23,504 nt of DNA from a virus. Below are positions 4,858-22,596 of this stretch, piece after piece. The number at the start of each line of letters is the position of its first letter. Within the stretch, counting starts at the first letter, position 1. Position numbers and translations under genes: made by a program. The DNA is taken from positions 1 through 23,504 of IMG/VR virus record IMGVR_UViG_3300005617_000156. One strand, written 5' to 3'. A model generated the notes under the pieces. That model searched no databases, was not told where the DNA came from, and saw nothing but the letters and a program-made list of their open reading frames with translations.

Positions 4858-4859
4858 GG

Positions 4860-5350: not shown

Positions 5351-5505
5351 GATGGAGACCTTATCGGACCGTCCTGGACATGTCCAGGACAAAAATCCAA
5401 GAAACCTGTTGCGGGAATCCCGCCCGGCCCCGATCCTAGGAAGCGTCGCGGCCCCCGCTGGGCAATCCCGCCCCGCCCGCCCCGCGACGAACGAAGAGGA
5501 AGGCA
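5351..5505. promoter_or_regulatory. Divergent intergenic control region
   Basis: This 155-base non-coding interval separates the leftward small-gene operon from the rightward recombination and replication genes, so both sets should be driven from here. It contains the 20-bp palindrome at 5371-5390, a second interrupted palindrome GCGGGA-A-TCCCGC at 5411-5423, and the direct repeat AATCCCGCCC at 5416-5425 and 5464-5473. No strong -35/-10 pair stands out. TGGACA inside the palindrome with GATAAG on the minus strand at 5360-5365 is a weak leftward candidate (15-base spacer). TTGCGG at 5410-5415 with GATCCT 17 bases on is a weak rightward candidate. Confidence 0.6.
5371..5390. promoter_or_regulatory. 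Perfect 20-bp palindrome, candidate operator
   Basis: GTCCTGGACA is followed immediately by its exact reverse complement TGTCCAGGAC, giving ten paired bases with no spacer. It sits 20 bases from the start of the leftward operon and 115 bases from the start of the rightward one, and is followed by AAAAA. Perfect symmetry at this length, in the one divergent junction of the window, is typical of a dimeric repressor site. The cognate protein is not identified. Confidence 0.65.
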
Positions 5506-6438: not shown

Positions 6439-7196
6439 GTACAAACATTGTGGAGCTTTCCATTCCGAATCCCGACAGGCAGCTTTTCGACAGCGCGCAG
6501 GCGAGCCTGGAGCAGGCGCGTGCCGCAACGATCACAACGCAGGAGGAGCTGTCGCTGGCGGGCGAGGACCTCATGACAATCAAGGGCTTGCAGAAGAAGC
6601 TCGAAGAGAAACGGACTTCGATCACGAAGCCGCTCAACGACGCGCTCAAGTCCGTGAACGATCTATTCCGGCCCGCGAAGGCATGGCTCGAAGAGGCCGA
6701 AGCGATCCGCAAAGGACAGATGACCGTCTATCGAGAGGCGGAGGCGGAGAAGATCCGCAAGGCTCAGGCCGAGTTGGAAGAGATCGCACGCAAAGAGCGC
6801 GAAGCTCTCGCTGCGAAAGCCGCCGAGGCCGAACGTAAGGCGCGCGAGCAGGCCGATAAGCTCCGCGCGGCGGCGAACACTGAGGCTGAACGCCAGGCCG
6901 CAGAGCGGCGCATCGCTCAAAAGGAAGCCGAAGCCGCAGCGAAGGCCGAAGCGTTGCGCGCGGAGGCAGCCGCGACGGTTGCTCCGAAGATCGTCGTGGA
7001 GCCGCCTCGGTCGTTCGGACAGAGCGTGCGCGAATCCTGGACGTTCGAAATCGTGGATGCATCGCTAATCCCGCGCGAGTTCCTCGTGATAGACGAGAAG
7101 AAGATCGGAGGCATCGTGCGTGTCATGAAGCACGACCACGGGATTCCAGGCGTCAAGGCCATCAAGGGCGAGGTCATCTCGTCGAAGGCTTGGTAG
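6435..7196 (+). CDS. Coiled-coil recombination-associated phage protein
   Basis: A 253-residue protein whose ATG overlaps the annealing-protein stop as ATGA. Residues 15-95 form a helical domain of the kind ITTQEELxxAGEDLxxIKGLQKKLEEKR..ITKPLN. Residues 100-190 are a long, uninterrupted, alanine/glutamate/arginine-rich coiled coil. The last 60 residues are a conserved compact domain (RESWTFEIVD, then GIPGVKAIKGEVI). I know this layout from many phages, where the gene sits beside ERF, RecT or Rad52-like genes and is of unproven function; assistance to recombination or nuclease recruitment is inferred. It ends with TAG just before the hairpin-rich gap. Confidence 0.8.
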   Translation: MSTNIVELSIPNPDRQLFDSAQASLEQARAATITTQEELSLAGEDLMTIKGLQKKLEEKRTSITKPLNDALKSVNDLFRPAKAWLEEAEAIRKGQMTVYREAEAEKIRKAQAELEEIARKEREALAAKAAEAERKAREQADKLRAAANTEAERQAAERRIAQKEAEAAAKAEALRAEAAATVAPKIVVEPPRSFGQSVRESWTFEIVDASLIPREFLVIDEKKIGGIVRVMKHDHGIPGVKAIKGEVISSKAW

Positions 7197-7378
7197 AAGC
7201 TTCGCCGCGCCTCGTGAACTGGAGCGCGCCGTGACGGGGATTCGTCAGCCGTGCGCGGTCCAGTTCGAAGCGGGGCGCGGCGTTTCCGCATCTCGCCGCC
7301 CTTGTGGGCCGGAAACACGTTTGGGTGGGTCCGAGCGTGCGCGAACCGGCTTGGAATGGGGGCGGCGGGACCCTCTTT

Positions 7379-7408
7379 CCGGAAATCGGGACGCCTCGAT
7401 CTTTCCGG
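7379..7408. repeat. Inverted repeat with bulge (CCGGAAA/TTTCCGG)
   Basis: CCGGAAATCG pairs with CGATCTTTCCGG: seven perfect pairs, a two-base bulge (7400-7401), then three more pairs around an eight-base loop. TTTCCGGA also appears as a direct repeat at 7376-7383 and 7402-7409. It lies in the non-coding gap. Confidence 0.5.
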
Positions 7409-7472
7409 ATCGTAACCGCCGGCACCGGCTTGATGTGGTAGGCGGACTCCCGTAGGTAGGAGCAGGTAGCGA

Positions 7473-7495
7473 CTCGGAGGACTTCACCCTCCGAG
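7473..7495. repeat. Perfect 8-bp stem hairpin, 7-nt loop
   Basis: CTCGGAGG at 7473-7480 and CCTCCGAG at 7488-7495 pair perfectly around the loop ACTTCAC. The loop arm GGAGG is also an exposed Shine-Dalgarno-like sequence when unfolded. No U-run follows, so it is not a standard rho-independent terminator. Confidence 0.6.
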
Positions 7496-7503
7496 GCGCT
7501 CAA

Positions 7504-7523
7504 CCGCTCGCGCAAACGAGCGG
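7504..7523. repeat. Perfect 7-bp stem hairpin, 6-nt loop
   Basis: CCGCTCG at 7504-7510 pairs with CGAGCGG at 7517-7523 around CGCAAA. It lies eight bases after the previous hairpin and thirty bases before the micro-ORF start. The pair of adjacent hairpins suggests a folded leader RNA or attenuator ahead of the replication genes. Confidence 0.55.
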
Positions 7524-7553
7524 CAAACCCACCGAGAAAGGCGCGTTTTCCCG

Positions 7554-7613
7554 ATGAATCTGCTCGCCAACGTACCAGCCGGCTACTGCGCGTTCAAGGT
7601 TGGTGCGGCTTGA
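7554..7613 (+). CDS. 19-residue micro-ORF, possible leader peptide
   Basis: ATG 7554 opens a frame of 19 codons (MNLLANVPAGYCAFKVGAA) whose TGA overlaps the TTG start of the DUF1376 gene as TTGA. The composition is protein-like and the overlap matches the coupling seen across the genome. No good ribosome site is seen at the usual distance; GAGAAAGG lies about 12 bases upstream. It could be a translated leader that couples the hairpin region to replication-protein synthesis, or chance. Low certainty. Confidence 0.35.
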   Translation: MNLLANVPAGYCAFKVGAA

Positions 7614-8428
7614 ACAACGCACGCGACGGGAAGATGCCGGCTTACCTCTGGTACCCGGCCGACTGGCTCTCCAGCTCGTCAGTCCGGCGCATGACACGCT
7701 GGGAGCGTTCCTGTTATCGTGACCTGCTCGACCATGCGTGGCTCGACGGTGGGATCCCGGACTCCTTGGAGGAGATTGCGCGTCTCCTCGGCGAACCGAT
7801 CGACCAGCTCCGCGCGTCGTGGGAGCGCCTCCGCGCCATGTTCAAGGCCGGTCCTGCTGGGCTGCTTGTGAACCCAAGGCAGGAATCAGAAAGGGCCATT
7901 CAAGCCGCCTTCCGGGCCGCGAAATCCAATTCTGGGAAGGCCGGAGCTGACGCACGTTGGCGCGACAAGCGAACCGATGGCAACGCCATAGATTCGCCAT
8001 TGGCGAAAAATGGCTCTTCTCCGGCTCCGGCTCCGGCTCAGAAGAGAGAAGAGAAGACAAGGCGCGCGAGCGCGCCCTTTGACTGGCGTGCTGTGCTTGC
8101 GGAGTTTCATGCGCTCGACGTTGACACCGTGCGGGCGGCGGTCGAGGCGTACCTGCCTGCTCGAAAGCAGGTCTGGACGAACCAGGGGATGCGGATCGCT
8201 CTGCGCAAGCTCGCCAAGCTCGGGCCCGCCGAGGCCGTCGTGGCGTTCGAGATGGCGACCGAAGGCGGTTGGAAGACGCTTTGGCCGCGCACGGATCAGA
8301 AGCGGTGGGGCGTCGTTCGCTCCGAAGCCCCTCCGCCGCCGACCATCGAGGAAATACGCCGACGTGATGCCGAGGAGCGGGCCGCAAAGGACGCCGCGTA
8401 CGCGCTACGCAAAGGCGGTGTCGCATGA
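7610..8428 (+). CDS. DUF1376-type replication initiation protein
   Basis: A 272-residue protein. The N-terminal domain (residues 9-90: MPAYLWYPADWLSS, VRRMTRWERSCYRDLLDHAW, GGIPDSLEEIARLLG) is the DUF1376 winged-helix-like domain found in phage replication or replisome-organiser proteins. A low-complexity linker (residues 125-150, with a PAPAPAP run) leads to a C-terminal domain (WRAVLAEFHAL ... GMRIALRKLAKLGPAEAVVAFEMATEGGWKTLW) resembling the helicase-loader-type tails of these proteins. It directly precedes the DnaB-like helicase with an ATGA overlap, which supports a role in origin recognition or helicase loading. The start is TTG 7610 by overlap with the micro-ORF; ATG 7634 is an alternative that begins exactly at the domain. 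Confidence 0.75.
   Translation: MNNARDGKMPAYLWYPADWLSSSSVRRMTRWERSCYRDLLDHAWLDGGIPDSLEEIARLLGEPIDQLRASWERLRAMFKAGPAGLLVNPRQESERAIQAAFRAAKSNSGKAGADARWRDKRTDGNAIDSPLAKNGSSPAPAPAQKREEKTRRASAPFDWRAVLAEFHALDVDTVRAAVEAYLPARKQVWTNQGMRIALRKLAKLGPAEAVVAFEMATEGGWKTLWPRTDQKRWGVVRSEAPPPPTIEEIRRRDAEERAAKDAAYALRKGGVA
7993..8077. repeat. Cluster of inverted repeats and hexamer repeat in replication gene
   Basis: Within the linker of the DUF1376 gene lie TTCGCC-att-GGCGAA (7993-8007), CTCTTCT/AGAAGAG (8014-8020 and 8040-8046) enclosing three tandem CCGGCT hexamers, and GGCGCGC-ga-GCGCGCC (8061-8076). The short A-run at 8006-8010 is the most AT-rich spot nearby. Phage origins often lie inside the initiator gene (lambda O is the known example), so this is an origin candidate. 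The encoded PAPAPAP linker could also explain the hexamer repeat. Confidence 0.4.
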
Positions 8429-9690
8429 ACCCGGAAACGAGGCTCTTGTACGAGCAGAGCATCCTCGGAGCCGTCTTCGTCGAGCCGAAGAGGCTGCCGG
8501 GCATCGTGGGGCTTGTGACACCCAAGGACTTCCTGGACACGCGCTGCCGGCTCTGGTTCGGTGCCGCACTCGCACTCCTCGAACGGAACGAACCGATCGA
8601 GATAGCGACCCTCGGCCTGGAGCTCGCCAACCGCGAGCAGTTCATCGAAGCCGGCGGGTACTCCGGGCTCATGGAAGCTACGGCCGATGGCTACCTGAAC
8701 GGCGCGCATCTCAAATACTACGTCCGCGAGCTGCTCAAGGAGACGCGCCGTATTCGCCTCGCGGAACTCTCAGCGCGAGCTGGGCAGGGTGAGGACGTGA
8801 GCGAGCTTCTCCTCGCGGAACTCCAGACCGAGCCCGCGCGCGAGGACGAGAAACCCGAGACGCTCGGATCGGTCGCTCGGAGCCTCGCGGCGCGCTCAAT
8901 CGCCGGCCTCTCGCTGAACGAGGGCTGCCTGCCGACGCCGTGGTCCGACCTGAACGACGCGATCATGGGCCTAGCTCCAGGCGAGCTAACGCTCGTGGCC
9001 GCTCGTCCCGGACGTGGGAAAACGGTGTTCGTCACGGACATCGCGCGCCACGTTGCGGAAACCGGCCCGGTGCTCTTCTTCTCGCTGGAGATGAACCGCA
9101 ACGGGATCACGACGCGGCTTCTCTCGTCGCTATCCGGGGTCAGTCACGCGGAGATCCGCCGGGGCGACATCCATGAGACGGATAAGGATTCGGTCGTAGA
9201 CGCCGCCGAGCGCATCGCGGAAATGCGCCTTGACCTGAACGACCAGGGCGGACTCTCAATCCAGCAGATGCGCGCGCTCGCAAAGGCAAGCAAGGCAAAA
9301 GACGGGCTCGCGCTCGTCGTCGTCGATTACGCCCAGCTCGCAAGCGATCCGAGGGCCGACCGGCGTTTCGAGGAGATGGCCGCCGTCTCTCGCGGGCTCA
9401 AGGAGATGGCCAAGGAACTCCGCGTGCCCGTGCTCGCGGCTGTCCAGTTGAACCGCGAGGGCGACGGCGAGAAACCCCGCCTTTCCCACATCCGGGAGTG
9501 CGGTCAATTCGAGCAGGACGGCGATACGATCCTGTTCCTGTGGATGGAAGATTCGAGAGAGAACGAGGAGTCACCGGATGTTGAGGTATGGATCAAGAAG
9601 AACCGACAGGGCCGAGGCGGGATCGTGAAGCTGATTTTCCAGAAGAGCCGGTGCCGGATGGTGCCGAGCGCCGGGGCCGTGTTCATGTGA
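8425..9690 (+). CDS. DnaB-like replicative helicase
   Basis: A 421-residue hexameric helicase of the DnaB/RecA superfamily, expected to unwind DNA 5' to 3' at the phage fork. The N-terminal domain (residues 1-110) has the DnaB form (EQSILGAVFVEP, FLDTRCRLWFGAALALLERNEPIEIATLGLEL, YVRELLKETRRIRLAELSARA). The ATPase domain starts near 170 (TPWSDLNDAIMGLAPGELTLVAARPG), with Walker A ARPGRGKT at 193-200, LFFSLEMNRNGITTRLLS (H1a/LEM motif) at 218-235, Walker B VVVDYAQL at 298-305, and the H3/H4 segments AAVQLNREGDGEKPRLSHIRECGQFEQDGDTILFLW at 338-373. All key residues are present and its length is near that of DnaB. ATGA overlap with the upstream initiator gene and GTGA with the following micro-ORF. 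Confidence 0.95.
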   Translation: MNPETRLLYEQSILGAVFVEPKRLPGIVGLVTPKDFLDTRCRLWFGAALALLERNEPIEIATLGLELANREQFIEAGGYSGLMEATADGYLNGAHLKYYVRELLKETRRIRLAELSARAGQGEDVSELLLAELQTEPAREDEKPETLGSVARSLAARSIAGLSLNEGCLPTPWSDLNDAIMGLAPGELTLVAARPGRGKTVFVTDIARHVAETGPVLFFSLEMNRNGITTRLLSSLSGVSHAEIRRGDIHETDKDSVVDAAERIAEMRLDLNDQGGLSIQQMRALAKASKAKDGLALVVVDYAQLASDPRADRRFEEMAAVSRGLKEMAKELRVPVLAAVQLNREGDGEKPRLSHIRECGQFEQDGDTILFLWMEDSRENEESPDVEVWIKKNRQGRGGIVKLIFQKSRCRMVPSAGAVFM

Positions 9691-9773
9691 ACGAGCCCCG
9701 GCACATCAAGCCGATCATCGCCGAGGTCATGGCGGACTGGGCGAAGCGCGTCGAGCCGGACGACCCGGCATGA
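9687..9773 (+). CDS. 28-residue conserved-looking small protein
   Basis: The GTG at 9687 overlaps the helicase TGA (GTGA), and its own TGA overlaps the next ATG (ATGA), so the frame exactly bridges two genes. The peptide, MNEPRHIKPIIAEVMADWAK with the tail RVEPDDPA, is amphipathic and helical. Small proteins of this type (IxPIIxEVMADW) occur in phage replication regions; I cannot name a family with confidence. The double overlap is the main support. Confidence 0.6.
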   Translation: MNEPRHIKPIIAEVMADWAKRVEPDDPA

Positions 9774-10282
9774 AGAAACCGCCCTACGACCCGATCGCCG
9801 ATCTCAAGCTCCAGATCCGCGCCGGCAAGCTGCCCGAGGCGATCGAAGAGCACCGATTCGGTCAGAGCATCAAGCGCCTGTACCGCTTCGACTGGGCCTG
9901 GCCCGAACAGGGCATCGCCTTGGAGTACGAAGGCGGGACCTGGGCCGCGATGTCCAGCCACATGCACCCGATGGCGTACGAGGAGGACGCGATCAAGTAC
10001 AGCCTCGCCGCCGGCCTCGGCTGGAAGGTCATCCGTTGCACGTCGAAGATGGTCCGGGACGGGACGGCCCTCACGCTGCTCCTATTCGCGTTCGGACGCA
10101 TCGCGCCCGAGCAGGTAGGTCCAATGACCAAGCGGGCAAAAAAACACAAGGACCGCGTTCCTGGTGAGTCTAGGGCGAAGATAAGCCTGGAGCGGTCTCG
10201 CGCGATCAACCTGCTCGGCCGGGGCAACCGCCGGAACGACCGGGGGGCGCTGCCTGAGTCCGTGCTGAGGGCGCTGCGATGA
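9770..10282 (+). CDS. PD-(D/E)XK-like phage nuclease
   Basis: A 170-residue protein. Residues 38-58 (LYRFDWAWPEQGIALEYEGGTW) match the core of Vsr/DUF559-like PD-(D/E)XK nucleases: Asp41 in RFDWAWPE, then Glu52 and Glu54 in ALEYEGG. Next come His64 and His66 and the helix YEEDAIKYSLAAGLGWKVIRCTSKMV (70-95), which in this family supplies Lys76 and the recognition helix. Such phage proteins are thought to process branched or mismatched DNA; the substrate is not known here. A basic C-terminal tail follows the core. ATGA overlap with both neighbours places it in the replication operon. Confidence 0.7.
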   Translation: MKKPPYDPIADLKLQIRAGKLPEAIEEHRFGQSIKRLYRFDWAWPEQGIALEYEGGTWAAMSSHMHPMAYEEDAIKYSLAAGLGWKVIRCTSKMVRDGTALTLLLFAFGRIAPEQVGPMTKRAKKHKDRVPGESRAKISLERSRAINLLGRGNRRNDRGALPESVLRALR

Positions 10283-10725
10283 AACGCGCCCGCCCGCTCT
10301 CCCGCTCAAAGCCTCCGAAAAAGGCGCGCTGGATCACCGGCACCACGCCCTACAGCGGGACGCGCTACTACTGCCGGGACGACGCCGTGATCGATCCGTC
10401 CAAGCCGGTCAAGTGGACGAACACGATGGTCCCGTACAAAGGCAAGCCCAAGCCTAAGCCCAAGAAGCGTAAGCCCTTGCGCAAGCGCGGCCTGCGAGCG
10501 GAGCGGGAGCGAGAGGCCCTCCAGCACGGCCGGGAAGTCACGCTCGCCCGCGCTCAAGGCCGCTGCGAACGCTGCGGGAGACACGCGCCGCTCGATGTCC
10601 ACCACGTTCGAAGCCGCGCCAGGAATCCCGGAGCGCCCTGGCTGCACGGCCCGGAAAATTTACGCGCCTGGTGCCGTCCGTGTCACGACGAGGAGCACTT
10701 TGGAGGGAAGATGCCGGTGTCTTGA
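10279..10725 (+). CDS. HNH endonuclease
   Basis: A 148-residue protein. The N-terminal ~80 residues are lysine/proline/arginine-rich and unlike a folded domain (repeated PK pairs at 55-69). The HNH domain follows: Cys96-x2-Cys99, DVHH at 106-109, the central GPENLRAWC (124-132, with Asn127), and Cys132-x2-Cys135-His136-x3-His140. The four cysteines would form the structural zinc site and the histidines and Asn the metal-dependent active site. HNH proteins near the terminase genes often act with the packaging complex; here the gene lies 5.5 kb from TerL, so it may instead serve replication. ATGA overlap with the upstream nuclease gene. Confidence 0.9.
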   Translation: MKRARPLSRSKPPKKARWITGTTPYSGTRYYCRDDAVIDPSKPVKWTNTMVPYKGKPKPKPKKRKPLRKRGLRAEREREALQHGREVTLARAQGRCERCGRHAPLDVHHVRSRARNPGAPWLHGPENLRAWCRPCHDEEHFGGKMPVS

Positions 10726-10841
10726 CGACCACCACAGCCAGTAGTAGGACATCCAACCGGGATGCAACAAGCTGGTGTGGATCTAGAGCGGCGGGCGTGC
10801 TCGATCGGGCGCGCTCGCCGCATCGCTTTTGGAGCTAGTTG

Positions 10842-11978
10842 ATGGCCTGGAACGCGGAGTTCATGGACACGTTCGCGCACTATTCGGTCGCGCTCGCTCA
10901 GAATCTCGGGAAGTGGACGAGCGCAACTGGCACGGCTCCGGTCGCCATGGACATCCCCGAGGACGGGCTGAAGGGGCTCCAAGGCGGATTCCTCTCCAAG
11001 ACGCTCGCCGCAACTACCGGCCGCATCATCGCCACGCGCGGATCGACGACAGGCAACGCGACCGTCGAGACGATCTTGAAGTGTTGCACGGACGCGAACG
11101 ACCACATCGTCTGGTTGTCCGTCGATGAGACGAACGGCCACGTCACGATGAACTTCCCCGATGGCTCGTTCATCACGAGCACGCAAGTCGTCATCACGAA
11201 CGGGGCCTATTACAACTTCGAACTCGCGTTTCTCTACACGGGCGTCCACCTCGTCTACGAGGTCTACGTCGATGGCGTGAAGCTCCTCGACATCGGCTCA
11301 ACCTACTCCGGCACAGGTGGGGCGGACACGCCGAACATGACGCAGCTTCGGACGTTCCAATCGCTCGGCAGCTTCCCGCCGCTCTTTGCGCGCGCATGGA
11401 TCGCGTGCAAGCGGTATTCGGGTTCCGGTGGTCAGTGGGTTGCGAACGATCTCTATGGCACGGTGAAGCGCGGCCTTCTCTACCCGAGCGCCGACGGCAA
11501 CGCGCCGGCCGGAGAAGTCGGCCGGAACTGGAAGCCCGACCTCCTCACGGGCCAATTCACGCCGCGCATCAACGAAACGATCGCGGACTCTGGCACGAGC
11601 TTGATCTTCACGGATGTCAACCCGATGGAGACGCTCTCGCCCCAGAACGAAGCGACCTGGTTCATGTCCGACAGCCCGAGCGACGTTCCGAATGCGGGCC
11701 TCGTGACGGACGTTCCGCACGTCCAGGTGAATAACCTCGCGTCGTTCAGCGGAACGCTTGGAACGGTGTACTGGGTAATCCGCTTGGACTCGGACACGAA
11801 CCTCGCAAACGATCAGCACATCGGGGATCCCGCAAACCCGGCGAACGCTCAAGCCCTAACGGCAAGCTTCCGCATCTACCCGCTCGCTTTTGGACGCGAC
11901 CCGCGCAGCGGCGATCCGTGGAGCAAATCAAACCTCGATAGCTTGGAGCTTGGCGTTTACGCATATGACGTTATCTGA
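10842..11978 (+). CDS. LamG/concanavalin-like virion protein
   Basis: A 378-residue protein whose ATG at 10842 has GGAG seven bases upstream; a TTG one codon earlier is also in frame. The first ~210 residues look like a beta-sandwich of the laminin G/concanavalin type: KTLAATTGRIIATRGS, ATVETILKCCTDANDHIVWLSVDETNGHVTMNF, then AYYNFELAFLYTGVHLVYEVYVDGVKLLD. The C-terminal part (ETLSPQNEATWFMSDSPSD, VPHVQVNNLASFSGTLGTVYWVIRLDSD) resembles phage appendage or minor tail proteins of unknown fold. It probably sits at the tail or head surface and binds glycans. A 115-base spacer separates it from the HNH gene and holds no clear promoter. It starts the appendage cassette, with a TGATG junction to the next gene. 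Confidence 0.65.
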   Translation: MAWNAEFMDTFAHYSVALAQNLGKWTSATGTAPVAMDIPEDGLKGLQGGFLSKTLAATTGRIIATRGSTTGNATVETILKCCTDANDHIVWLSVDETNGHVTMNFPDGSFITSTQVVITNGAYYNFELAFLYTGVHLVYEVYVDGVKLLDIGSTYSGTGGADTPNMTQLRTFQSLGSFPPLFARAWIACKRYSGSGGQWVANDLYGTVKRGLLYPSADGNAPAGEVGRNWKPDLLTGQFTPRINETIADSGTSLIFTDVNPMETLSPQNEATWFMSDSPSDVPNAGLVTDVPHVQVNNLASFSGTLGTVYWVIRLDSDTNLANDQHIGDPANPANAQALTASFRIYPLAFGRDPRSGDPWSKSNLDSLELGVYAYDVI

Positions 11979-12343
11979 TGGCCAAGCTCTACCACTCTCA
12001 GAGCGTCACGGAGTACCTCTACAGGCCCGTGGGCGGTGGTGGAGGAGGAACGGATTCAGAGATCGATCTCAGTCAGAGCGTCGTGGAGTTTCTGTATGTC
12101 CCGACTAGCTCTCCGACAAACCCGCAGCTCGAAATCAGCCAGAGCGTTGCTGAGTTTCTCTACAAGGTCACGCGCGTTACTCCCCCGTCAATCTACCTCA
12201 GCCAGCAGGTCGTAGAGTTCTTGTACACGCCCCCGACCGAACCGCCGCCGCCTCCCCTGGAAGGCTTCTTCGAATGCGGCATCGCTTCGTCGTGGGTTGC
12301 TTGCGTCCAGCAGCAGCAGGCGTACTGCGAGGATAACGGCTAG
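11978..12343 (+). CDS. Small protein with four SQxVxEFLY repeats
   Basis: A 121-residue protein starting with the ATG of a TGATG junction. It carries four copies of a nine-residue motif: SQSVTEYLY (7-15), SQSVVEFLY (32-40), SQSVAEFLY (54-62) and SQQVVEFLY (75-83), at spacings of 25, 22 and 21 residues, usually preceded by an Ile/Leu-x-Leu strand. Linkers are glycine- or proline-rich (GGGGGG; PPTEPPPPP). The C-terminal 25 residues have three cysteines (100, 109, 117). Related SQEYVEVLY-type repeats occur in phage virion proteins, from memory. Placement between the LamG-like protein and the tailspike suggests a virion linker or adaptor; function is inferred. Confidence 0.75.
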   Translation: MAKLYHSQSVTEYLYRPVGGGGGGTDSEIDLSQSVVEFLYVPTSSPTNPQLEISQSVAEFLYKVTRVTPPSIYLSQQVVEFLYTPPTEPPPPPLEGFFECGIASSWVACVQQQQAYCEDNG

Positions 12344-15156
12344 TGCCGCGCATCATCAAAACGAGCGATCGGAAGCCGGAGGGCGTCGATTTTGGCGACA
12401 CGATGGCGCGGCTTCCGACGCGGCGCGACGGGACCAAGCTCCTCGCGGCGGACATCGCAAGCATTCGTCTGCGCGTCTTCGATCGAAAGAATCCGCGCAC
12501 GGAAATCTGGTCCACGGATCTCGCGCCCGCGAGCACGATCTACGCGAGCTACCAGCTAAACGATCGATGGGACATCGACACGATCGGCTTCGACTTCCTG
12601 CACTACCTCTCGCTCGATCTCGTCTTCGCAGGCGACATCAAGGAAGCGGGCGGCCACACCTATCGGCTCGAATACTACCTCGTCACGAAAGCCGCGACGG
12701 GGATGGGGCGGATCCTGATTGAGCGCGAGGTGTACGTGGTGCCGGCGTTCTCGCCTCTCCCCCCTGCTGACACGGGTGGTGGTGGAAACACGCCGGACTT
12801 CACGCTCTCGATTGTTCCGCAGACGCAGCAGGTCAACGCGGGCAGTAGCGTCACCTACACCGTCTCGAACCTCGGCACCAACGGCTTCGTCGGGCAAATT
12901 GACCTTACGGTCGCGCCGGTCATTCCGGGCGTCACGTACATCCTGGATCTTGCGACGATCAGCAACGACTCCTCGACGACGCTGCGTGTCTTCACGGACG
13001 GGAGCGTTGTTCCTGCCGGCTACACGATCGTCGTCACGGGCACGTCGGGCCTGCTCGTGCATCAAGCCGCCGCCGGCCTTGATGTCCTCGCCAACGCTGG
13101 CGACTTCTCGATCATCGCCAACCCGCCGAGTGTTACGGTGGAGGAGGGCGACTCGATCGACGTGTCGATTAGCTCGACGGCAATCGCGGGCTTCACGGGC
13201 ACGATCTCCTACACGGTCGGTCCGCCGCTACTCGGAGTCACCTACTCGATCAATCCGCCCTCGGTGATCGTCGGCAACACGGCGACGCTGACGATTGACA
13301 CGATCGTAGGTGCCGCATCGGGCGGGCCGGTCATTGCAACGCTCACGATCACGGGGACAAGCGGCCTGCTCGTCCACACGACGACCACGCTTCTGCAAAT
13401 CGACCCCGCCGGCACCGGCTCAACGGGCTGGACGACTTTCACGGCGACGAGCGGAACGGATCACGATACGCGCAAGGTCTATTGCTCAAGCTCGACAGGG
13501 AACGACGGAAACTCAGGGCTCGACGACACGCACCCGAAGCTCACGCTCTCAGCCGCGTGCGCGCTCATCCGCGACGGATTCCCGGACTGGCTCCTCCTGA
13601 AATCAGGTGACACGTTCACGGGCCACCTCAGCGACGGAACGCCCAACAGCGACTATTGGAGGCAAGCGGGCTACTCGGCTTCCGAGAAGATCCTGATTTC
13701 AACCTACACGCCAGGCAACGCGGCGCTGACCACGTTCGGCGCGCGGGCAAAAATCGACAGCACCTACCACGGCAGCCCGCCCTACGAAGTGGCGTGTATG
13801 CAGACGTGGAACCAGCAGTCAAACGGTCACTATGTCGGCAACCTCGCCATCGTGAACATCGAGTTCACGAGCACGGCCTATGACGGCACGGTCGAGATGC
13901 GCGGCGTCCAGTTCTACGGCGGCGGCCCCGACATCCTCGTCGAAGGATGCTACTTCCACCGCCTGACGGCCGGCCTCATCTTCGGCAGCGACGGCCACGG
14001 AGGAGCAGGACGGCTCTCGCGCGTGATCGTTCGTCGGAACATCATCGCGGACAACTTCCGTTCAGGAGCGAACGGCCTCGGCTCTCAAGGGCTCTACATG
14101 TCCGACACGGACGGGGCCTTGATCGAGCAGAACTGCATCGACTGCAACGGATGGTCAGAGTTCACGGGCCAAGGCGATCCGAGCCAGTTCCGCAGAAACG
14201 TCTACATCCAGAACGCTTGCACGGGCCTTGTCTTCCGACAGAACCTCGTCAGTCGCTCGGATGGAATCCAGCTTCGTCCCGGCGGCGATCTCCTCGGAAA
14301 CTTCTTCTATAAGAACGCGATCAACCTCCAGTTCGGATCAGGAAACGAACCGGAGACGGGCGGTGTAAACGGGCTCATCAAGGGCAACGTCATCATCGAC
14401 GGCAACAACATCGGCAGCGGCCCCGACGACGGACGCGGGACCGGAATCAGCATGGGCAACGTCGTGGGGTCAGCGATCAACCCCGCCGTCGTCACCTACA
14501 ACATCATCGCGCACAACGTCACGGGCGACAGGACGCGATTCAACGTGATGCCGCTCCTGTTGAACTTCGACAACGGCCACGGCAACCCGAACGGGATGCA
14601 CCACGTGACCTTCGACCACAACATCATCTATGACTGGTCATGCATCGGTAGGCAATCGCTCGTCGGTTGGTACACAACGCAGCAAAGCCCGCAGGGCTAC
14701 CCGCTCGAAGAGATCGCGTTCAGCTACAACGACCTGCAAAGCGCGCTCGCCGCTGACCAAGCGTTCCCGATCATCGACTTCGTAACGACGACGATCAACG
14801 TGCCGCCGGAGATCCATTCGGACCACAACCGGATCCACCGGAAGAACGACAATCAGACAGCGGACAACATGTTCAAGATCCGGGGCACGTCCTACAAGTT
14901 CGACGCCTACATGGCGCTCGTCGGGGACAGCACCAGCCGATATGTCGAGATCACGCCAGGTGGGGGAGCGGACCAATACCCCGACCCGGCCAGCGGCCTC
15001 CCCGAGTACGACTTGTCGGTAGGCGGCGCGGGAACGGTAGCGCACTTCTTCGCTCAAGCGCGGCTCAACTCGAAAGTCTCATGGGTTGACACCTGGACGG
15101 CGGCTCCGGTCTGCGCGTTCTTCCAAGCGAACTTCGGGATGGTTGTGCCTCCGTGA
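12343..15156 (+). CDS. Tailspike-like beta-helix protein with Ig-like domains
   Basis: A 937-residue protein; the GTG start overlaps the previous stop by one base (TAGTG). Residues 1-140 are an N-terminal beta-rich domain, probably the virion-attachment part. A GGGG linker precedes two Ig-like domains (152-249 and 254-353), both ending with the shared motif TGTSGLLVH. From about 378 the sequence becomes a right-handed parallel beta-helix: entry KVYCSSSTGNDGNSG, LLLKSGDTF, and repeated strand and turn units such as GVQFYGGGPDILVEGCYF, VIVRRNIIADN, GLIKGNVIIDGNNIG, VTYNIIAHNV and VTFDHNIIYDW. These are typical of pectate-lyase-like spikes that bind or cut polysaccharide. No catalytic residues can be assigned by eye. 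It is the likely host-recognition spike. Confidence 0.85.
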   Translation: MPRIIKTSDRKPEGVDFGDTMARLPTRRDGTKLLAADIASIRLRVFDRKNPRTEIWSTDLAPASTIYASYQLNDRWDIDTIGFDFLHYLSLDLVFAGDIKEAGGHTYRLEYYLVTKAATGMGRILIEREVYVVPAFSPLPPADTGGGGNTPDFTLSIVPQTQQVNAGSSVTYTVSNLGTNGFVGQIDLTVAPVIPGVTYILDLATISNDSSTTLRVFTDGSVVPAGYTIVVTGTSGLLVHQAAAGLDVLANAGDFSIIANPPSVTVEEGDSIDVSISSTAIAGFTGTISYTVGPPLLGVTYSINPPSVIVGNTATLTIDTIVGAASGGPVIATLTITGTSGLLVHTTTTLLQIDPAGTGSTGWTTFTATSGTDHDTRKVYCSSSTGNDGNSGLDDTHPKLTLSAACALIRDGFPDWLLLKSGDTFTGHLSDGTPNSDYWRQAGYSASEKILISTYTPGNAALTTFGARAKIDSTYHGSPPYEVACMQTWNQQSNGHYVGNLAIVNIEFTSTAYDGTVEMRGVQFYGGGPDILVEGCYFHRLTAGLIFGSDGHGGAGRLSRVIVRRNIIADNFRSGANGLGSQGLYMSDTDGALIEQNCIDCNGWSEFTGQGDPSQFRRNVYIQNACTGLVFRQNLVSRSDGIQLRPGGDLLGNFFYKNAINLQFGSGNEPETGGVNGLIKGNVIIDGNNIGSGPDDGRGTGISMGNVVGSAINPAVVTYNIIAHNVTGDRTRFNVMPLLLNFDNGHGNPNGMHHVTFDHNIIYDWSCIGRQSLVGWYTTQQSPQGYPLEEIAFSYNDLQSALAADQAFPIIDFVTTTINVPPEIHSDHNRIHRKNDNQTADNMFKIRGTSYKFDAYMALVGDSTSRYVEITPGGGADQYPDPASGLPEYDLSVGGAGTVAHFFAQARLNSKVSWVDTWTAAPVCAFFQANFGMVVPP

Positions 15157-15362
15157 CAGAGCCGATGCCCTATCGGGATCCGACGCCGATCGACATGCAC
15201 GTCCAGGGGGAACGGATCTACTGCCACAACCTCACCGAAGAGCAGCAGAAGTGGATGATCGACGCCATCGGATCCGAGGTCACGATCGTCATGGACAAGA
15301 AGCCTTTGCGCGTGCGCGTCAAGGGCGTCAAGAAGAACAAGGCGATACTGGAGGTGCTCTAG
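15153..15362 (+). CDS. Small hypothetical protein, 69 aa
   Basis: GTG 15153 overlaps the tailspike TGA (GTGA). The product reads as one small alpha/beta domain (MHVQGERIYCHNLTEEQQKW, then EVTIVMDKKPLRVRVKG and a C-terminal KAILEVL strand). There is one cysteine and no motif I recognise. Its stop overlaps the endonuclease VII start by one base. It may be a small virion or regulatory protein; unassigned. Confidence 0.7.
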   Translation: MTEPMPYRDPTPIDMHVQGERIYCHNLTEEQQKWMIDAIGSEVTIVMDKKPLRVRVKGVKKNKAILEVL

Positions 15363-15742
15363 TGCCGGCGAAGACGCAGAAGGGCTGGCCCAGCCACGAC
15401 AAGTACCTTGAGTACCACCGCAAGTATCGTCGGGCTAATCCGGAGCAGTTTGAGTTGGCCAGAATCAAGTACGTCTATGGTTTGACCGACGAGGCGGCAC
15501 GGATGTCGATGCGTGAGGTGCGGCTGGAGTGCCATGCCTGCGGCTCGCTCCCGACGGCGCGACGCAAGCATTGCATCGACCACGAACACGATACAGGGTT
15601 CATCCGTGGGGTGTTGTGCCACAACTGCAACCTAATTCTTGGTCTGGCCTACAACGATGCGGAGCGCCTACGCAATCTCATCGAGTACCTTGAAAACGTG
15701 ATCGCATACAAGGAGAAGCGCGATGCCGGCAACGTCAGCTAA
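15362..15742 (+). CDS. Recombination endonuclease VII
   Basis: A 126-residue protein. GTG 15362 has GGAGG seven bases upstream and overlaps the preceding stop (TAGTG), so the longer open frame is rejected. Residues ~58-100 carry the signature of the T4 gp49 family: CHACGS, RKHCIDHEHDTGFIRGVLCHNCNLILGL, then AERLRNLIEYLEN. The two CxxC pairs bind zinc, and the IDHEHDTG segment holds the His/Asp active site. The enzyme cuts Holliday junctions and branched DNA, clearing them before packaging. This is the third nuclease of the window. Size is short against T4 gp49 (157 aa) but usual for phage relatives. Confidence 0.9.
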   Translation: MPAKTQKGWPSHDKYLEYHRKYRRANPEQFELARIKYVYGLTDEAARMSMREVRLECHACGSLPTARRKHCIDHEHDTGFIRGVLCHNCNLILGLAYNDAERLRNLIEYLENVIAYKEKRDAGNVS

Positions 15743-15875: not shown

Positions 15876-16217
15876 TTGATCGAGGGGAACGGACACGAAG
15901 CGGCGAGCAATTCGCCGCAAGCGGCGAGGCCTTCACCCGTCAACGGGGTCATTCCGCCCGTCGAGCATCAATTCACCTCGGAGACGGCGGCGCTCTTTGG
16001 GAGAAAAGGCGGCCTCATCTCGGGCCAGGCTCGGAAGAAGCTGCGCGAGAACCCCGAGCGCCTTTCAAAGATCACCGACGGCTGGCTCGATCGTGCGGAA
16101 ATCGACCGTGGCGATTTGAGCCTGCTTCTGGAGTACGTCGAGGGCAAGCCCAAGCAGACGGTCTCGGTTGAAACGAGCGCGCCTACGGAGATCGGTGGAG
16201 TCGAGGCGTGGCAGTAG
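15876..16217 (+). CDS. Putative terminase small subunit
   Basis: A 113-residue protein directly before TerL, overlapping it by 10 bases. Only TTG 15876 lies upstream of the conserved part, since a stop in frame precedes it at once. The sequence has a low-complexity N-terminus (residues 1-28), then AALFGRKGGLISGQARKKLRENPERL (38-63) and LSLLLEYVEGKPKQTVSVE (81-99). The AxLGRKGGxxSGxARKK and LLxYVxGKPKQxVxV segments occur in phage small terminase proteins. A DNA-binding helix-turn-helix cannot be confirmed by eye. Position is the stronger evidence. Confidence 0.55.
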   Translation: MIEGNGHEAASNSPQAARPSPVNGVIPPVEHQFTSETAALFGRKGGLISGQARKKLRENPERLSKITDGWLDRAEIDRGDLSLLLEYVEGKPKQTVSVETSAPTEIGGVEAWQ

Positions 16218-17701: not shown

Positions 17702-19572
17702 TCGACCGCACTCCGAAGAAGGTCTTTGAGCTTGTCGAGGCGGGCGAAGCCCTGCGCAAGAAGCACTTCGAATCGGTAGCCGACCAAGTGCGCCGCTATC
17801 ACGGGCCTTGGTACGACGGAAACCCGCAGAGCGCCGTCACGGACTACGACCCGGCCCCGCTCGCTTACGAGTACATCTCGCTCGTCTTGCCGACGATCGC
17901 GTGGGACAACCCGAGCTTCGAAGTAAAGAGCAAGCGCGGGATCCAGAACTCGCTTGTCGATCAGGTCTTCAAGCACGCGCTCGACCGCTGGGCTGTCGAT
18001 ACGGACTTGCAAGAGGCGCTTGAGCTGGTCGCTACGGACTTCCTCTTCGCGTTCGGCGTCTTGCTGACTGAGATGGAGCCCTCGAAGGATCAGGACCCGA
18101 CGGGCAAGGATCCGAGGAAGCGCCCGGTTGTGAACCAGCTCGATCCGCGCAGGTTCGGGGCGGATCCCTTCGCTACGAACTGGCGCGACGCGCGCATCCT
18201 CTTCCACATGTGGGTCCGGGACCGCGAGGACATCCTCAAGGAAGCGAAAGAGAGCCCGGACAAGGGCTGGGATGTCGAGGCGATCGAGAAGCTCGGCGCG
18301 AACGTCGGCGTTGAGAAGCTCGGCCGCGACAAGACGGCGGACAACGCGCCGCAGCGGGATGAGGTCGTCGGCTATCAATGCTGGATCGCCGAGTGGGAGC
18401 ACGAGGACGTTGCGAAGATGCCCGAGGAGAAGCGCCGGCTCTTCAAGGGAACGATCGTTGACGTTGCTGCGTCGGGCGCGGACGGGACCGATCGAACGAT
18501 CGCGTTCATCCGCAAGGCCCGGCCCTTCTATGGTCCGGCGTGGGGGCCTTACTCGATCCTGGGTGCCTACAAGGTGCCGGGGAAGCTCTACCCGCTCGGG
18601 CCGTTGACTGCGATCGAGGCGCACAACAGAGAACTCAACGCGGCGAAGAAGGCGTATCTCAAGGCGCACCGCGCGCGGAAGAAGATCGGTCTTGCGTCAG
18701 ACAAGGACCCGACGCTCTCCGACACGATCCTCGACACGCCGGACGGTGAAGTCGCGCTCGTGAACATGGACAACCTCGATCGCAACTTCAAAGAGGTCGA
18801 GTTGGCGGGGCCGACGGAAGAGCAACGGCTTGCCATCGTGGGCCTCGAATCGGACGCAGACACGGCGCTCGGCATGAGCGACGCGAAGAAGGGCGACGTA
18901 ACAGGCATCGGCACGGCGACGGAGAACGCGATTGCGGACGCGGCTGGAAATCAGCGCCTCTCGTGGAAGAAGAAGCGATTCCGTAAGGGCGTGCTCCAGG
19001 CTTGCAAGACGGCTGCCTGGTACATCTGGAACAACGAGCAGGTGGAAATCCCGTTGCCCGAGGAGGCAACAGCCGAGCTTGGTCTGCCGGCCGGGACGAC
19101 CTTCCGAGGTGGGGAACCGGCGAAGGAAGATCAGGCGCTCGATGTCTCGAAGACGGACTTCGAGGACCTCGAAATCGAGATCGAGGTCTTGAGCACGGAG
19201 CGGGTGGACGAGGGCGTCGCGCAGGCAAGAGCCATGCAGCTCTTCCAGCTCGCGGCTACGACGATGCCTGTTGTTGCCTCGTTCCCGATGGCGGGATGGG
19301 TCGAAGCGTTCGACATGGTTGGGGAGTCGCTCAACGTGTCGGATCTCGGGAAGATCCTCGGCATTGACCGCGTGCAGGCGGCGGCGGCGAATGGGCAGCT
19401 TCCCCAGCCTCCTGGCGAGCAGGACGCAGGACAGCCCAGGATGAGCGGAGACAAGGCGAGCGTGGGTAGGGCTCAGAGCCCGGCTCCGGCCGTGAAGAAG
19501 GGCGGGGTAGCGCCACAGGCGGCTCCGCAGAAGGCCCAGAACAACCGTGCGCGCACGGCGGGGGTGGCGTAG
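17698..19572 (+). CDS. Portal protein
   Basis: A 624-residue protein following TerL with an ATGA overlap. The N-terminal part (FESVADQVRRYHGPWYDG, then PLAYEYISLVLPTIAWDNPSFEVKSKRG) and the central NQLDPRRFGADPFATNWRDARILFHMWVRDREDILKEA segment read like large phage portal proteins. The AHNRELNAAKKAYLKAHRARK region is the helical stem and ADTALGMSDAKKGDVTGIGTATENAI the usual loop before the helical tail. It forms the dodecameric DNA gate at one capsid vertex. The last ~60 residues are proline/alanine-rich and poorly conserved-looking. The N-terminal lysine-rich start and long length suit a podo- or siphovirus portal. Confidence 0.85.
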   Translation: MIDRTPKKVFELVEAGEALRKKHFESVADQVRRYHGPWYDGNPQSAVTDYDPAPLAYEYISLVLPTIAWDNPSFEVKSKRGIQNSLVDQVFKHALDRWAVDTDLQEALELVATDFLFAFGVLLTEMEPSKDQDPTGKDPRKRPVVNQLDPRRFGADPFATNWRDARILFHMWVRDREDILKEAKESPDKGWDVEAIEKLGANVGVEKLGRDKTADNAPQRDEVVGYQCWIAEWEHEDVAKMPEEKRRLFKGTIVDVAASGADGTDRTIAFIRKARPFYGPAWGPYSILGAYKVPGKLYPLGPLTAIEAHNRELNAAKKAYLKAHRARKKIGLASDKDPTLSDTILDTPDGEVALVNMDNLDRNFKEVELAGPTEEQRLAIVGLESDADTALGMSDAKKGDVTGIGTATENAIADAAGNQRLSWKKKRFRKGVLQACKTAAWYIWNNEQVEIPLPEEATAELGLPAGTTFRGGEPAKEDQALDVSKTDFEDLEIEIEVLSTERVDEGVAQARAMQLFQLAATTMPVVASFPMAGWVEAFDMVGESLNVSDLGKILGIDRVQAAAANGQLPQPPGEQDAGQPRMSGDKASVGRAQSPAPAVKKGGVAPQAAPQKAQNNRARTAGVA

Positions 19573-19994
19573 TGCCGATCTATCTTTTCCGGGCTCTCGA
19601 TGGCTCGATCGTCGAGCGGTACCTCTCGATGGACGAGGCCCCGGAGATTGGCTCGAACATCGTGGACCCCGAGGGGGAAGGCAACTTGACGCGCCTTCCG
19701 AGCGGCTCGTCTGGTCCGGGCATCGTCCGGGACTACGCGAACACGGGGCATAGCCTCCCGAAGGTCTGGGATCCTCGTGCCGTGGCGAAGAGGCGCAGGG
19801 CGGAAGCCGCCGTCGAAGCTGATCCAGCGCAGCGCGAGGCGCTTTTGGAGAGCGCCAGCGATTGGGAGCGGTCCAAGCCCTTCTGGAAGAAGACCGACGC
19901 CAAGGGCCACCCCGTTTTCGAGACCAAGCGCGACGTGGAGGAGTTCCAGGCGCGCACCGGAGGGCGTTACCGCTTCAACGCGGACGTGGATTGA
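19572..19994 (+). CDS. FmdB-like protein without zinc ligands
   Basis: A 140-residue protein starting at the GTG of a TAGTG junction with the portal gene. Residues 1-44 (MPIYLFRALDGSIVERYLSM, then DEAPEIGSNI and a final LTRLPS) follow the outline of an FmdB zinc ribbon (MPxYxYRC..CG..FE..xSMxxxP). None of the cysteines that define FmdB is present, so the fold may persist without metal. The rest (AVAKRRRAEAAVEADPAQREALL, FWKKTDAKGHPVFETKRDVEEFQARTGGRYRF) is charged and helical, the last part resembling a short DNA- or protein-binding tail. Phages often carry such a gene near the portal; no function is established. Confidence 0.65.
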   Translation: MPIYLFRALDGSIVERYLSMDEAPEIGSNIVDPEGEGNLTRLPSGSSGPGIVRDYANTGHSLPKVWDPRAVAKRRRAEAAVEADPAQREALLESASDWERSKPFWKKTDAKGHPVFETKRDVEEFQARTGGRYRFNADVD

Positions 19995-20031
19995 CCATCA
20001 ACGAGGAAACTAGTAGGAGGTTGTAGGGAAG

Positions 20032-20349
20032 ATGATCGTTCAAGAGCAGAGCGTTGTTCGTTTCGCCCCGACGGGGGACCGCATCGTCGTCCGACGGCTT
20101 GAGAACGACGGCCGCAGTCCTGGCGGCGTGTTCCTCCCGCAGAACTTCAAAGAGGCTTTGAGCGAGGGTCTTGTGCTCGCGGTCGGGCCGGGCCGGCGCT
20201 TCGATGACGGCAAGGTCTATCCGCCGCCGTACATGGCCGGGCAAGTTGTGCTCTACCACGAAAGCTCGGGGCTGGAGTTCGACAAGGAAGCCGAGGACCA
20301 GGTGATGCTCGCGGAGAGCGTTGTGATCGGGGTGAAGCGTGTCCTCTGA
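20032..20349 (+). CDS. groES: GroES-like co-chaperonin
   Basis: A 105-residue homologue of Cpn10. The recognisable parts are GDRIVVRRLE (15-24), the mobile loop with GGVFLP (31-36, the VFL tripeptide matching the GroEL-binding IVL of E. coli GroES), EGLVLAVGPGRRFDDGK (45-61) and GQVVLYHESSGLEF (70-83). A C-terminal VMLAESVVIGV follows. Such proteins cap GroEL in ATP-driven folding. T4 gp31 is the classical phage example, needed to fold the capsid protein. This gene sits between portal and scaffold, just before the capsid gene. ATG 20032 has GGGAAG adjacent and GGAGG 11 bases upstream. The next gene overlaps by 11 bases. Confidence 0.9.
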   Translation: MIVQEQSVVRFAPTGDRIVVRRLENDGRSPGGVFLPQNFKEALSEGLVLAVGPGRRFDDGKVYPPPYMAGQVVLYHESSGLEFDKEAEDQVMLAESVVIGVKRVL

Positions 20350-21382
20350 GGCCACCACGATCGACGCTCCGCAGCCCTCACCGGCTGCGATGCCGACCGG
20401 CAAGCCGCGCGACCCGGAGACGGGCAAGTTCGCTCCGAAGCAGACGATCTCGGACGATGCCGTCCGAGCGCAGCTTGCGAAGGAGTTCCCGGACGATCCG
20501 GGCTTCAAGGCTCCGAAGGAGAAGGCCGCGAAGGTCGAGGCCAAGGAAGAGGCACCCGCCAAGGCGGACGCTGCCCCCGAGGCAAAGAAAGAACAACCCG
20601 CCGAGGCGGCCAAGGTCGAGCCCGACAAGGCTTTGACCAAGGCCATCGACGTGTTGAGTCGGGCGCGGATTCCTGCGTCCGTCGTGGAGAAGATGGACAG
20701 GGACGAGAAGATTGCGGCGGCGAAGGCCGTTCGGGATCAGGTCGTCGAGAGCCAGAAGCTCCACAACCGGCTTGTTGAGCTGGAGAAGAAGCAGGGCCAG
20801 AGCATCGCTGGGAATGAGCCTGCCACCGGATCGGCCGCGAAAGCGCCCGAGAGCCCGCGTAGCAACCCCAGGGAGGCGCTCAAGGCACTTGCTCCGCTCT
20901 ATGGCGACGAGGCCGTGAAGGCGTTTGGCAGCATCATCGAGCCGCTCATTGACCGCTTGGACACGATCGAGCAGGTGACGAACCGCTCGACCCAGGCGAG
21001 CGTGCAGCGGACGTTGAACGATGCCAGAGTCGCGTTGCAGGAGCGTTTCCCGCAACTGGAGGACGAAGACGATTTCGGAGAAGCCATGCCGATCATGGTG
21101 AAGCTCGAATCTACGGGCCTGTTCGACACGAGCACGGTTGACGGGATGAAAGAGCTAATCACACAGGCGGCGGCAAAGCTTCGCTGGACGGCGATCGAGC
21201 CTCAGCAAAAAGAAAGCGAAGCGGCGTTTATTCGCGCGCGCGACAACGGGACGGCTTCTTCAAAGTCGAAGTCGGGCACCTCTGCTACCAAAACCAAAGA
21301 GGAGAAAGAGGATCTCGCGGCGGAACTCGCCATGGATCCCTCGGTCTCTATCGAGGAGGCACGCAGGCGCGTTCACGGATAG
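20339..21382 (+). CDS. Capsid scaffolding protein
   Basis: A 347-residue acidic, alanine/lysine/glutamate-rich protein. GTG 20339 with an upstream GGGGTGAAGC overlaps the GroES gene by 11 bases. Residues 1-95 are disordered-looking (RDPETGKFAPK, then repeated KAEAKEEAP-type segments). Residues 95-155 form a helix and residues 170-280 a coiled coil (EALKALAPLYGDEAVKAFGSIIEPLIDRLDTIEQVTNRS). A charged C-terminal region (residues 305-347) follows. Composition and position between portal and capsid genes fit a scaffold that is removed during capsid maturation. A protease domain is not apparent. Confidence 0.75.
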   Translation: MSSEATTIDAPQPSPAAMPTGKPRDPETGKFAPKQTISDDAVRAQLAKEFPDDPGFKAPKEKAAKVEAKEEAPAKADAAPEAKKEQPAEAAKVEPDKALTKAIDVLSRARIPASVVEKMDRDEKIAAAKAVRDQVVESQKLHNRLVELEKKQGQSIAGNEPATGSAAKAPESPRSNPREALKALAPLYGDEAVKAFGSIIEPLIDRLDTIEQVTNRSTQASVQRTLNDARVALQERFPQLEDEDDFGEAMPIMVKLESTGLFDTSTVDGMKELITQAAAKLRWTAIEPQQKESEAAFIRARDNGTASSKSKSGTSATKTKEEKEDLAAELAMDPSVSIEEARRRVHG

Positions 21383-21405: not shown

Positions 21406-22596
21406 GTGGCAGGCTCAAGCCTGAGCGCATTTACGCGATTCCAAGACATCACGGGGCCGACGTACTACTCGGGCCGTGAGGAATGCGTGAACGATGCTCA
21501 GAAGACGAATTATCACACTCTCGGTTACTTGCTGCGCGGACAGCAAATGGCCGACATTCTCCAGGGTGGCGCGGACATCCGCGACAACATCACCCTCGGG
21601 GTAACGCGGCTCACTCACTCCTACAAGATCGGGGACTCTGAGACCTACCAGATGCCCCAGCCGACGACCACGTGGCGCGTGCCGTGGCGGTACTGGCTCA
21701 CCTACCTCGCGTGGACCGACCAACAGGTCGAGCTGAACGAGGGTGGCGGCGACCTCACCCACGTCTTCAAGCGTGAGTGGTGGAAGATGCAGCAGGAGAT
21801 GTGGACTGACTATTTCAACTACATGGAGGAGAGCTATTGGGCCGTTCCCAACAAGTCCACCATGGAGGCGGTTGACGGTCAGGAGCAGTACTCCATTCCG
21901 TGCTTCATCAACGAGCACACGAACGGCCTCGCGGCTCCGGGAACGGCGAACGGTGGCACCTGGACGACCGTGCAGAACGTCGATCCGACGGCTGCCGGCA
22001 AGTCCACGTGGGTTCCGACGCAGCAGAGCTACACGCAGCTTCTCTCGACGACGAACAGCGCGTCGGCGGTTGCGGGTCTCGTGTCTGCGTTCGACAAGGC
22101 GTACGACAAGTGCGACTTCCAAGCCCCGCCGATGAAGGCGGAATACTTCGAGTCGAACATGGCGCAGCCGCAGGGCTTCATCGCTTGCTCTCTCCAGGGC
22201 AAGGCGAACGCCCGGTTTGCGTACCGCGACGCGAACGACCGCTGGCAGGACTTCTGGGATCCGTTCGGTCAGCCGACCTACGGCGGACGCCCTTTCGTGT
22301 ACGTGAAACAGCTCGATACCGCCGCGATCTTCCCGACGGGATCGGCTGCGGCGTACTCGACTGAACTCGATACGGCGGGCACGACGAACGCCGGCCCTCG
22401 CTACTTCGGGATCATGCCCAAGTACCTCCGAAGCGTGTTCAAGAACACGCGCTTCATGAAGGACCTTGGCGTGATGACGGACGCGAAGACGCCGACGACT
22501 CACGCTCGCCCGTTCGACAACTGGGGCAACCTCGTCTGCCGATCGCGCGCCCGTCACTTCATCATCTACCCGACGGCGGACATCAACAACGCCTAG
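21406..22596 (+). CDS. Major capsid protein
   Basis: A 396-residue protein after the scaffold gene, starting at GTG 21406 with AGGA nine bases upstream. The sequence has segments typical of HK97-like phage capsids lacking a long leader: QMADILQGGADIRDNITLGVTRL, then YWLTYLAWTDQQVELNEGG, a WWKMQQEMWTDYFNYMEESYW helix (120-140), KAEYFESNMAQPQGFIACSLQG, and a C-terminal PFDNWGNLVCRSRARHFIIYPTADINN. The fold assignment is by position and composition. It is the likely folding client of the phage GroES. A Shine-Dalgarno-bearing 13-base spacer leads to the decoration gene. Confidence 0.8.
   Translation: MAGSSLSAFTRFQDITGPTYYSGREECVNDAQKTNYHTLGYLLRGQQMADILQGGADIRDNITLGVTRLTHSYKIGDSETYQMPQPTTTWRVPWRYWLTYLAWTDQQVELNEGGGDLTHVFKREWWKMQQEMWTDYFNYMEESYWAVPNKSTMEAVDGQEQYSIPCFINEHTNGLAAPGTANGGTWTTVQNVDPTAAGKSTWVPTQQSYTQLLSTTNSASAVAGLVSAFDKAYDKCDFQAPPMKAEYFESNMAQPQGFIACSLQGKANARFAYRDANDRWQDFWDPFGQPTYGGRPFVYVKQLDTAAIFPTGSAAAYSTELDTAGTTNAGPRYFGIMPKYLRSVFKNTRFMKDLGVMTDAKTPTTHARPFDNWGNLVCRSRARHFIIYPTADINNA

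Follow-up and report, generated by a model that had tools for sequence, protein, structure and literature searches.

Why would a phage carry a GroES of its own, and why keep it among the genes for its head? We address this question for one viral contig, analysed over its whole record of 23,504 bp (the window), which is classed as linear and is probably a fragment. An original prediction had proposed that a groES gene in this window lies between the portal and scaffold genes, that it serves capsid folding as in phage T4, and that such a placement is rare.

Results

Identity and predicted structure of the product

The groES reading frame (Table 1) starts with ATG, stops with TGA and encodes a protein of 11.6 kDa. 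This protein matches the Pfam family Cpn10 (PF00166) over residues 11-101 (E 9.1e-18; 64.5 bits, cut-off 21.1) and PHROG 3188, co-chaperonin GroES (E 3.6e-13). A sequence search of the PDB returned 20 matches at E<=1, the first 17 of which (E<=4.3e-7) are Cpn10-type co-chaperonins. The profile and PDB matches are well outside chance. The core motifs that had been singled out (GDRIVVRRLE, GGVFLP, AVGPGRR and GQVVLY) are all found in the sequence, and so is the intact hydrophobic tripeptide for GroEL binding, V33-F34-L35. It lies in a mobile loop that carries G31 G32 V33 F34 L35 P36 and that, in alignments, has the length of the loop in bacterial GroES.

Structure prediction of the protein alone had been proposed as the means by which a fold other than Cpn10 would come to light. 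An AlphaFold2 model built with 35 viral sequences reached a mean pLDDT of 84.5 and a pTM of 0.75, its confidence being low mainly for the N-terminal residues and the mobile loop. Residues 21-40 have a pLDDT of only 58-69, which is consistent with a flexible mobile loop. When the model was searched with Foldseek, the best matches among solved structures were Cpn10/GroES proteins (TMt up to 0.91), including Thermus Cpn10 (E 4.6e-7) and proteins from Mycobacterium, human mitochondria and E. coli GroEL complexes. T4 gp31 (1g31) was also recovered (E 2.2e-3), and those high-ranking viral predicted structures that carry a name are likewise GroES. The predicted fold of the 105-residue product is the Cpn10 beta-barrel, and the identification as GroES therefore survives the fold test.

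The head block around groES

Table 1. Positions of the head-block genes in the window and of features in and before groES
Feature	Position	Strand	Basis
Candidate terminase small subunit, 113 aa, overlaps TerL	15876..16217	+	Position alone
Terminase large subunit (TerL), 497 aa	16208..17701	+	PHROG 2, E 1.9e-22; 31% identity to Thermobifida phage P1312 TerL
Portal protein, 624 aa	17698..19572	+	Family-level SU10_portal, PHROG 1216, PHROG 332; position after TerL
140-aa protein in the portal-groES interval, conserved in 5/5 lineages	19572..19994	+	Synteny
AGGAGG, probable groES ribosome-binding site, 11 nt 5' of ATG	20015..20020	+	Sequence
groES (Cpn10 co-chaperonin), 105 aa	20032..20349	+	PF00166, PHROG 3188, PDB Cpn10 matches, AlphaFold2 and Foldseek
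N-terminal extension, ~10 residues ahead of the Cpn10 core, common to the group's five lineages	20032..20061	+	Alignment
Mobile loop E24-A42 (limits approximate); tripeptide V33-F34-L35 at 20128-20136	20101..20157	+	Alignments, low pLDDT
Dome roof segment, ~residues 53-64	20188..20223	+	Alignment, pLDDT about 95
Putative scaffold protein, 347 aa, Glu/Lys/Ala/Gln 41%, GTG start within groES	20339..21382	+	Position, composition, conservation
Putative major capsid protein, 396 aa, 44.6 kDa	21406..22596	+	Position, conservation across group
Candidate head decoration protein, 177 aa	22610..23143	+	Position alone; 50% identical in L006

Sequence comparison supports the assignment of the terminase large subunit well. 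The portal is supported only through weak matches of its family: SU10_portal was matched at 7.8e-4, PHROG 332 (head-tail adaptor) at 3e-6 and PHROG 1216 (portal) at 3e-4, the two PHROG matches being found in 3/5 family members. Alignments of the portal and of the capsid protein gave nothing usable against PDB profiles. The putative scaffold protein had no convincing match among Pfam and PHROG family profiles, and neither did the putative major capsid protein in the family libraries and the PDB. An AlphaFold2 model of the latter from five sequences had a pLDDT of 27.9, and an HK97 fold is unsupported by it. The names scaffold and major capsid are putative and are given by position, composition and conservation, not by homology.

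Thus the placement of groES between portal and scaffold is right in that the gene lies inside the head block. However, groES does not adjoin the portal gene, because the gene for the 140-aa protein intervenes, and its 3' neighbour is a scaffold gene by position. The two genes do overlap, as had been claimed, and share 11 nt. Promoter and terminator scans gave signals no better than shuffled sequences, and a tRNA and Rfam search of the window found none.

Elsewhere in the window, a protein of 937 aa (12343-15156), encoded upstream of the terminase genes, shows Ig-like repeats and a beta-helix-like stretch by eye. It had no match in Pfam or PHROG and may be a tailspike or another host-binding protein, unusually placed. 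A Recombination endonuclease VII gene (PF02945, 1.8e-17) lies at 15086-15742, just 5' of the candidate small terminase, and an HNH endonuclease gene (PF01844, 2.4e-7) at 10279-10725. The plus strand also carries a recombination-replication module, with a single-strand annealing protein (PHROG 3290; 5506-6438) and a DnaB-like helicase (8425-9690).

Relatives and conservation of the locus

Single-sequence pattern searches of viral contigs with GroES and with the capsid protein found no close relatives, tblastn of the capsid and portal proteins in annotated phages gave no match, and there were no capsid relatives in bacterial genome contigs. Relatives were obtained by pattern searches with TerL and the portal, and then with an alignment of the capsid protein. 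Five lineages cover the stretch: the window, L097, L096, L098 and L006 (near-copies L005, L010 and L095; the L005 contig stops inside the scaffold gene). All five share one gene order (portal, small gene, groES, scaffold, capsid); L006 has an additional gene after the portal. The groES and scaffold genes overlap in every lineage, by 11, 4, 4, 4 and 1 nt, which suggests that their translation is coupled.

Two of these loci carry further genes near groES. In L096, a gene for an HNH_3 endonuclease (1110-1589), possibly a homing element, lies between the small gene and groES, which is intact. The extra gene of L006 (5302-5907), in the interval between the portal and the small gene, encodes 201 aa. 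Over 70 residues its product shows 57% identity to a portion of a 319-aa protein (L095 7047-8006) encoded 3' of the capsid gene; judging by this match, the two proteins could have a domain in common.

The five GroES proteins form one clade (support 97/82, and 95/86 in a second tree), so that a single ancestral acquisition in this group would be the simplest reading. Beyond the group, the phylogeny of viral and bacterial GroES that had been suggested is mixed, and its resolution is poor. The dN/dS of groES is 0.17-0.29 for the three lineages nearest to each other, so the gene is under purifying selection; deep pairs are near saturation and were left out of this estimate. Identity between deep lineages is 26-36% for GroES, 36-40% for the putative scaffold protein, 57-63% for the portal and 61-68% for the putative capsid protein. 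In four relatives the scaffold protein shows 35-39% identity, and the capsid protein is ~68% identical throughout the group. The divergence of GroES is therefore about as rapid as that of the scaffold protein, whereas the putative capsid protein changes far more slowly.

In alignments, the relatives retain the hydrophobic tripeptide followed by proline in the mobile loop. The loop of L006 is two residues shorter and is without the GG pair, and the roof region has four additional residues in L006, L096 and L098. A GroEL gene was sought in all records of the group, which may be fragments, and none was found; host GroEL would therefore be the expected partner.

Other viral groES loci

A profile-pattern search of viral contigs yielded 80 GroES loci, reduced to 44 non-redundant loci of more than 8 kb. 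GroEL is also present in 21 of these 44 records and is missing from 23. Neighbours were inspected for a selection of the 23 loci, which is not an unbiased sample, and those that could be matched belong mostly to DNA metabolism (DNA polymerase, exonuclease, ParB-like, SbcC-like and helicase proteins). Exceptions in this selection are the order TerL, groES, portal in L027, groES followed by TerL in L064, and a TerL gene upstream in L026. The L027 block lies at 4520-8312 and 9241-11670; its terminase is a protein of 947 aa, and the N-terminal part of this protein has further matches to DnaC-like or primase ATPase families.

Among annotated phages, a GroES gene stands immediately 5' of a scaffold-like gene and then a capsid gene in HTVC023P (MN698239), HTVC027P (MN698241), the roseophage CRP-902 (OQ401624) and DSL-LC04 (OR003939), and in HTVC023P and DSL-LC04 the portal lies a few genes 5' of GroES. 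The 13 core genes of HTVC023P-type pelagiphages include GroES (PMC9599517). It also occurs within the structural gene block of the Pseudoalteromonas siphovirus B8b (PMC4294664), and cpn10 is among the proteins shared by the flavophage family Pervagoviridae (PMC8776804). A Flavobacterium immuto phage has groESL. The expectation that a groES in the head block is rare agrees with the DNA-metabolism neighbours that predominate in the inspected selection. However, HTVC023P and DSL-LC04, the capsid-side order in HTVC027P and CRP-902, and the status of GroES as a core gene (PMC9599517) make it only partly right: the layout is uncommon, yet it is already known in annotated phages.

Several records were rejected as examples of phage GroES. 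'Acinetobacter phage MD-2021a' (CAKLQH020000021) carries groS and groL in an ordinary bacterial setting, along with glpK, pckG and acrB, and is therefore probably bacterial. Salmonella records of 0.5 Mb with GroES look bacterial as well. Records named 'Listeria phage' or, from faeces, 'Bacteriophage sp.', which lack annotation, were likewise set aside.

Discussion

What, then, might this GroES do for the phage? We consider it likely that the product is a functional co-chaperonin of the GroES type, which would serve as a heptameric lid on host GroEL and help to fold phage head proteins during late expression. Under this explanation the protein would assemble into a heptamer that binds and caps host GroEL, and it would be made together with the scaffold protein through translational coupling. 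Its likeliest client would be the capsid protein encoded 1 kb 3'; the putative scaffold protein or other head proteins are alternatives. The phage may need more lid, or a better-matched lid, than its host supplies; alternatively, specificity could reside in the inner surface of the dome. The supports for a head-directed co-chaperonin are the predicted fold, the intact mobile loop, the fixed synteny, the overlap with the scaffold gene, the single origin in the group and the purifying selection. The comparable location of groES in HTVC023P, HTVC027P, CRP-902 and DSL-LC04 and the precedent of T4 gp31 also speak for it. Against it stand the shortened L006 loop without GG and the positional identities of the capsid and scaffold proteins. 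The faster divergence of GroES than of the putative capsid protein would also not be expected if a close match of chaperone and client were all that mattered.

The same protein could instead be a general supplement, keeping GroEL capacity high or replacing host GroES for a wide range of phage proteins, in which case its place in the head block would reflect expression from the late operon rather than a role specific to the capsid. Most sampled viral groES genes with matched neighbours lie outside head modules (beside genes for DNA polymerase, exonuclease, ParB or SbcC-like proteins), others share their record with GroEL, and the groESL of the Flavobacterium immuto phage is of the same kind. 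Moreover, gp31-like proteins can stand in for GroES with every essential client of the host (PMC3012670), the loop and roof of the window protein resemble those of ordinary GroES, and the putative capsid protein, at 44.6 kDa, is smaller than gp23 of T4 (PMC6318259). However, five lineages keep groES in the slot 5' of the scaffold gene, and the HTVC023P-type group and DSL-LC04 have it in a similar one, which points to a role in head assembly, and we regard a general supplement as rather unlikely.

Another reading takes the rapid divergence at face value: the Cpn10 fold may have been repurposed, mainly as a structural or assembly factor acting with the scaffold or portal, and no longer chiefly as a lid for GroEL. 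Low identity between the deep lineages, the shortened loops of relatives with loss of GG in L006, the four-residue roof insertion in three of them and the fixed place adjoining the scaffold gene would all fit. However, the window protein has a full mobile loop, its relatives keep the hydrophobic tripeptide and proline, and the model matches GroEL-bound GroES structures. Strong divergence is also no bar to function, as phage co-chaperonins diverge strongly yet stay functional, gp31 being only 14% identical to GroES (PMC6318259). Repurposing thus seems improbable. That groES is a relic, or was picked up by chance from a host and has no role in the phage, is extremely improbable: phages do take up host genes and the wider viral and bacterial tree is mixed, but the gene keeps the same place in 5/5 covered lineages as one clade, has a low dN/dS among the three closest of them, was kept in L096 despite the adjacent HNH insertion, and shows no frequent losses or broken copies among relatives.

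On present sequence evidence, then, groES is real, correctly identified and conserved, and it looks functional; it adds an example to a known theme. If the role as a lid for head proteins is correct, a little-known phage group joins those that encode a chaperonin lid next to their head genes. There would then be a conserved genetic link from co-chaperonin to head assembly, and the putative capsid protein should fit the ordinary GroEL-GroES cage.

Compared with the GroES/Cpn10 family at large (PF00166; PHROG 3188), the window protein has the same profile, predicted beta-barrel, loop tripeptide, predicted roof segment and size. It differs in its N-terminal extension and is ~26-37% identical to the other aligned viral and bacterial members. 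Its gene lies in a phage head block rather than beside groEL.

The closest likeness in gene order is to the HTVC023P-type phages, CRP-902 and DSL-LC04, where groES is likewise directly 5' of a scaffold-like gene that is followed by the capsid gene. However, the GroES proteins of HTVC023P, HTVC027P, CRP-902 and DSL-LC04 are only 17-23% identical to that of the window and ~30-50 residues longer. Comparison of the portal, scaffold and capsid profiles of the two groups by hhalign, with shallow alignments, was not significant, and both groups of portals touch PHROG 1216 weakly. The window-group and pelagiphage GroES proteins are separate in the best tree, yet their union in one clade is not rejected (p-AU 0.365). 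It is possible that the two groups recruited groES independently. A broader proposal would be that groES was recruited independently into the same pre-scaffold slot in at least two unrelated head modules, and that here it became a head-dedicated lid that evolves roughly as fast as the scaffold protein, with a cage of normal size; taken as a whole we think this doubtful. If it were true, capsid-specific co-chaperonins need not enlarge the cage. In B8b, by comparison, GroES lies outside the portal-scaffold interval, shortly 5' of the tape-measure gene.

T4 gp31 and RB49 CocO are, like the window protein, phage-encoded co-chaperonins with the Cpn10 fold. T4 gene 31 is not known to lie in the portal-capsid block. 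The T4 parallel that had been drawn fits in role and fails in detail. Folding of gp23 needs gp31, and GroES is no substitute (PMC3012670). The mobile loop of gp31 has 22 residues rather than 16, its roof loops are absent, and its client of ~56 kDa, gp23, is described as slightly above the limit of the cage (PMC6318259). In contrast, alignment and model give the window protein a loop of GroES length and a predicted roof segment, without the lengthened loop and missing roof of the gp31 type. Given an ordinary GroES loop and roof and a putative capsid protein of 44.6 kDa, the explanation of gp31 as the maker of a larger cage does not apply here, and the window groES offers a useful contrast to gp31 for asking why phages carry lids.
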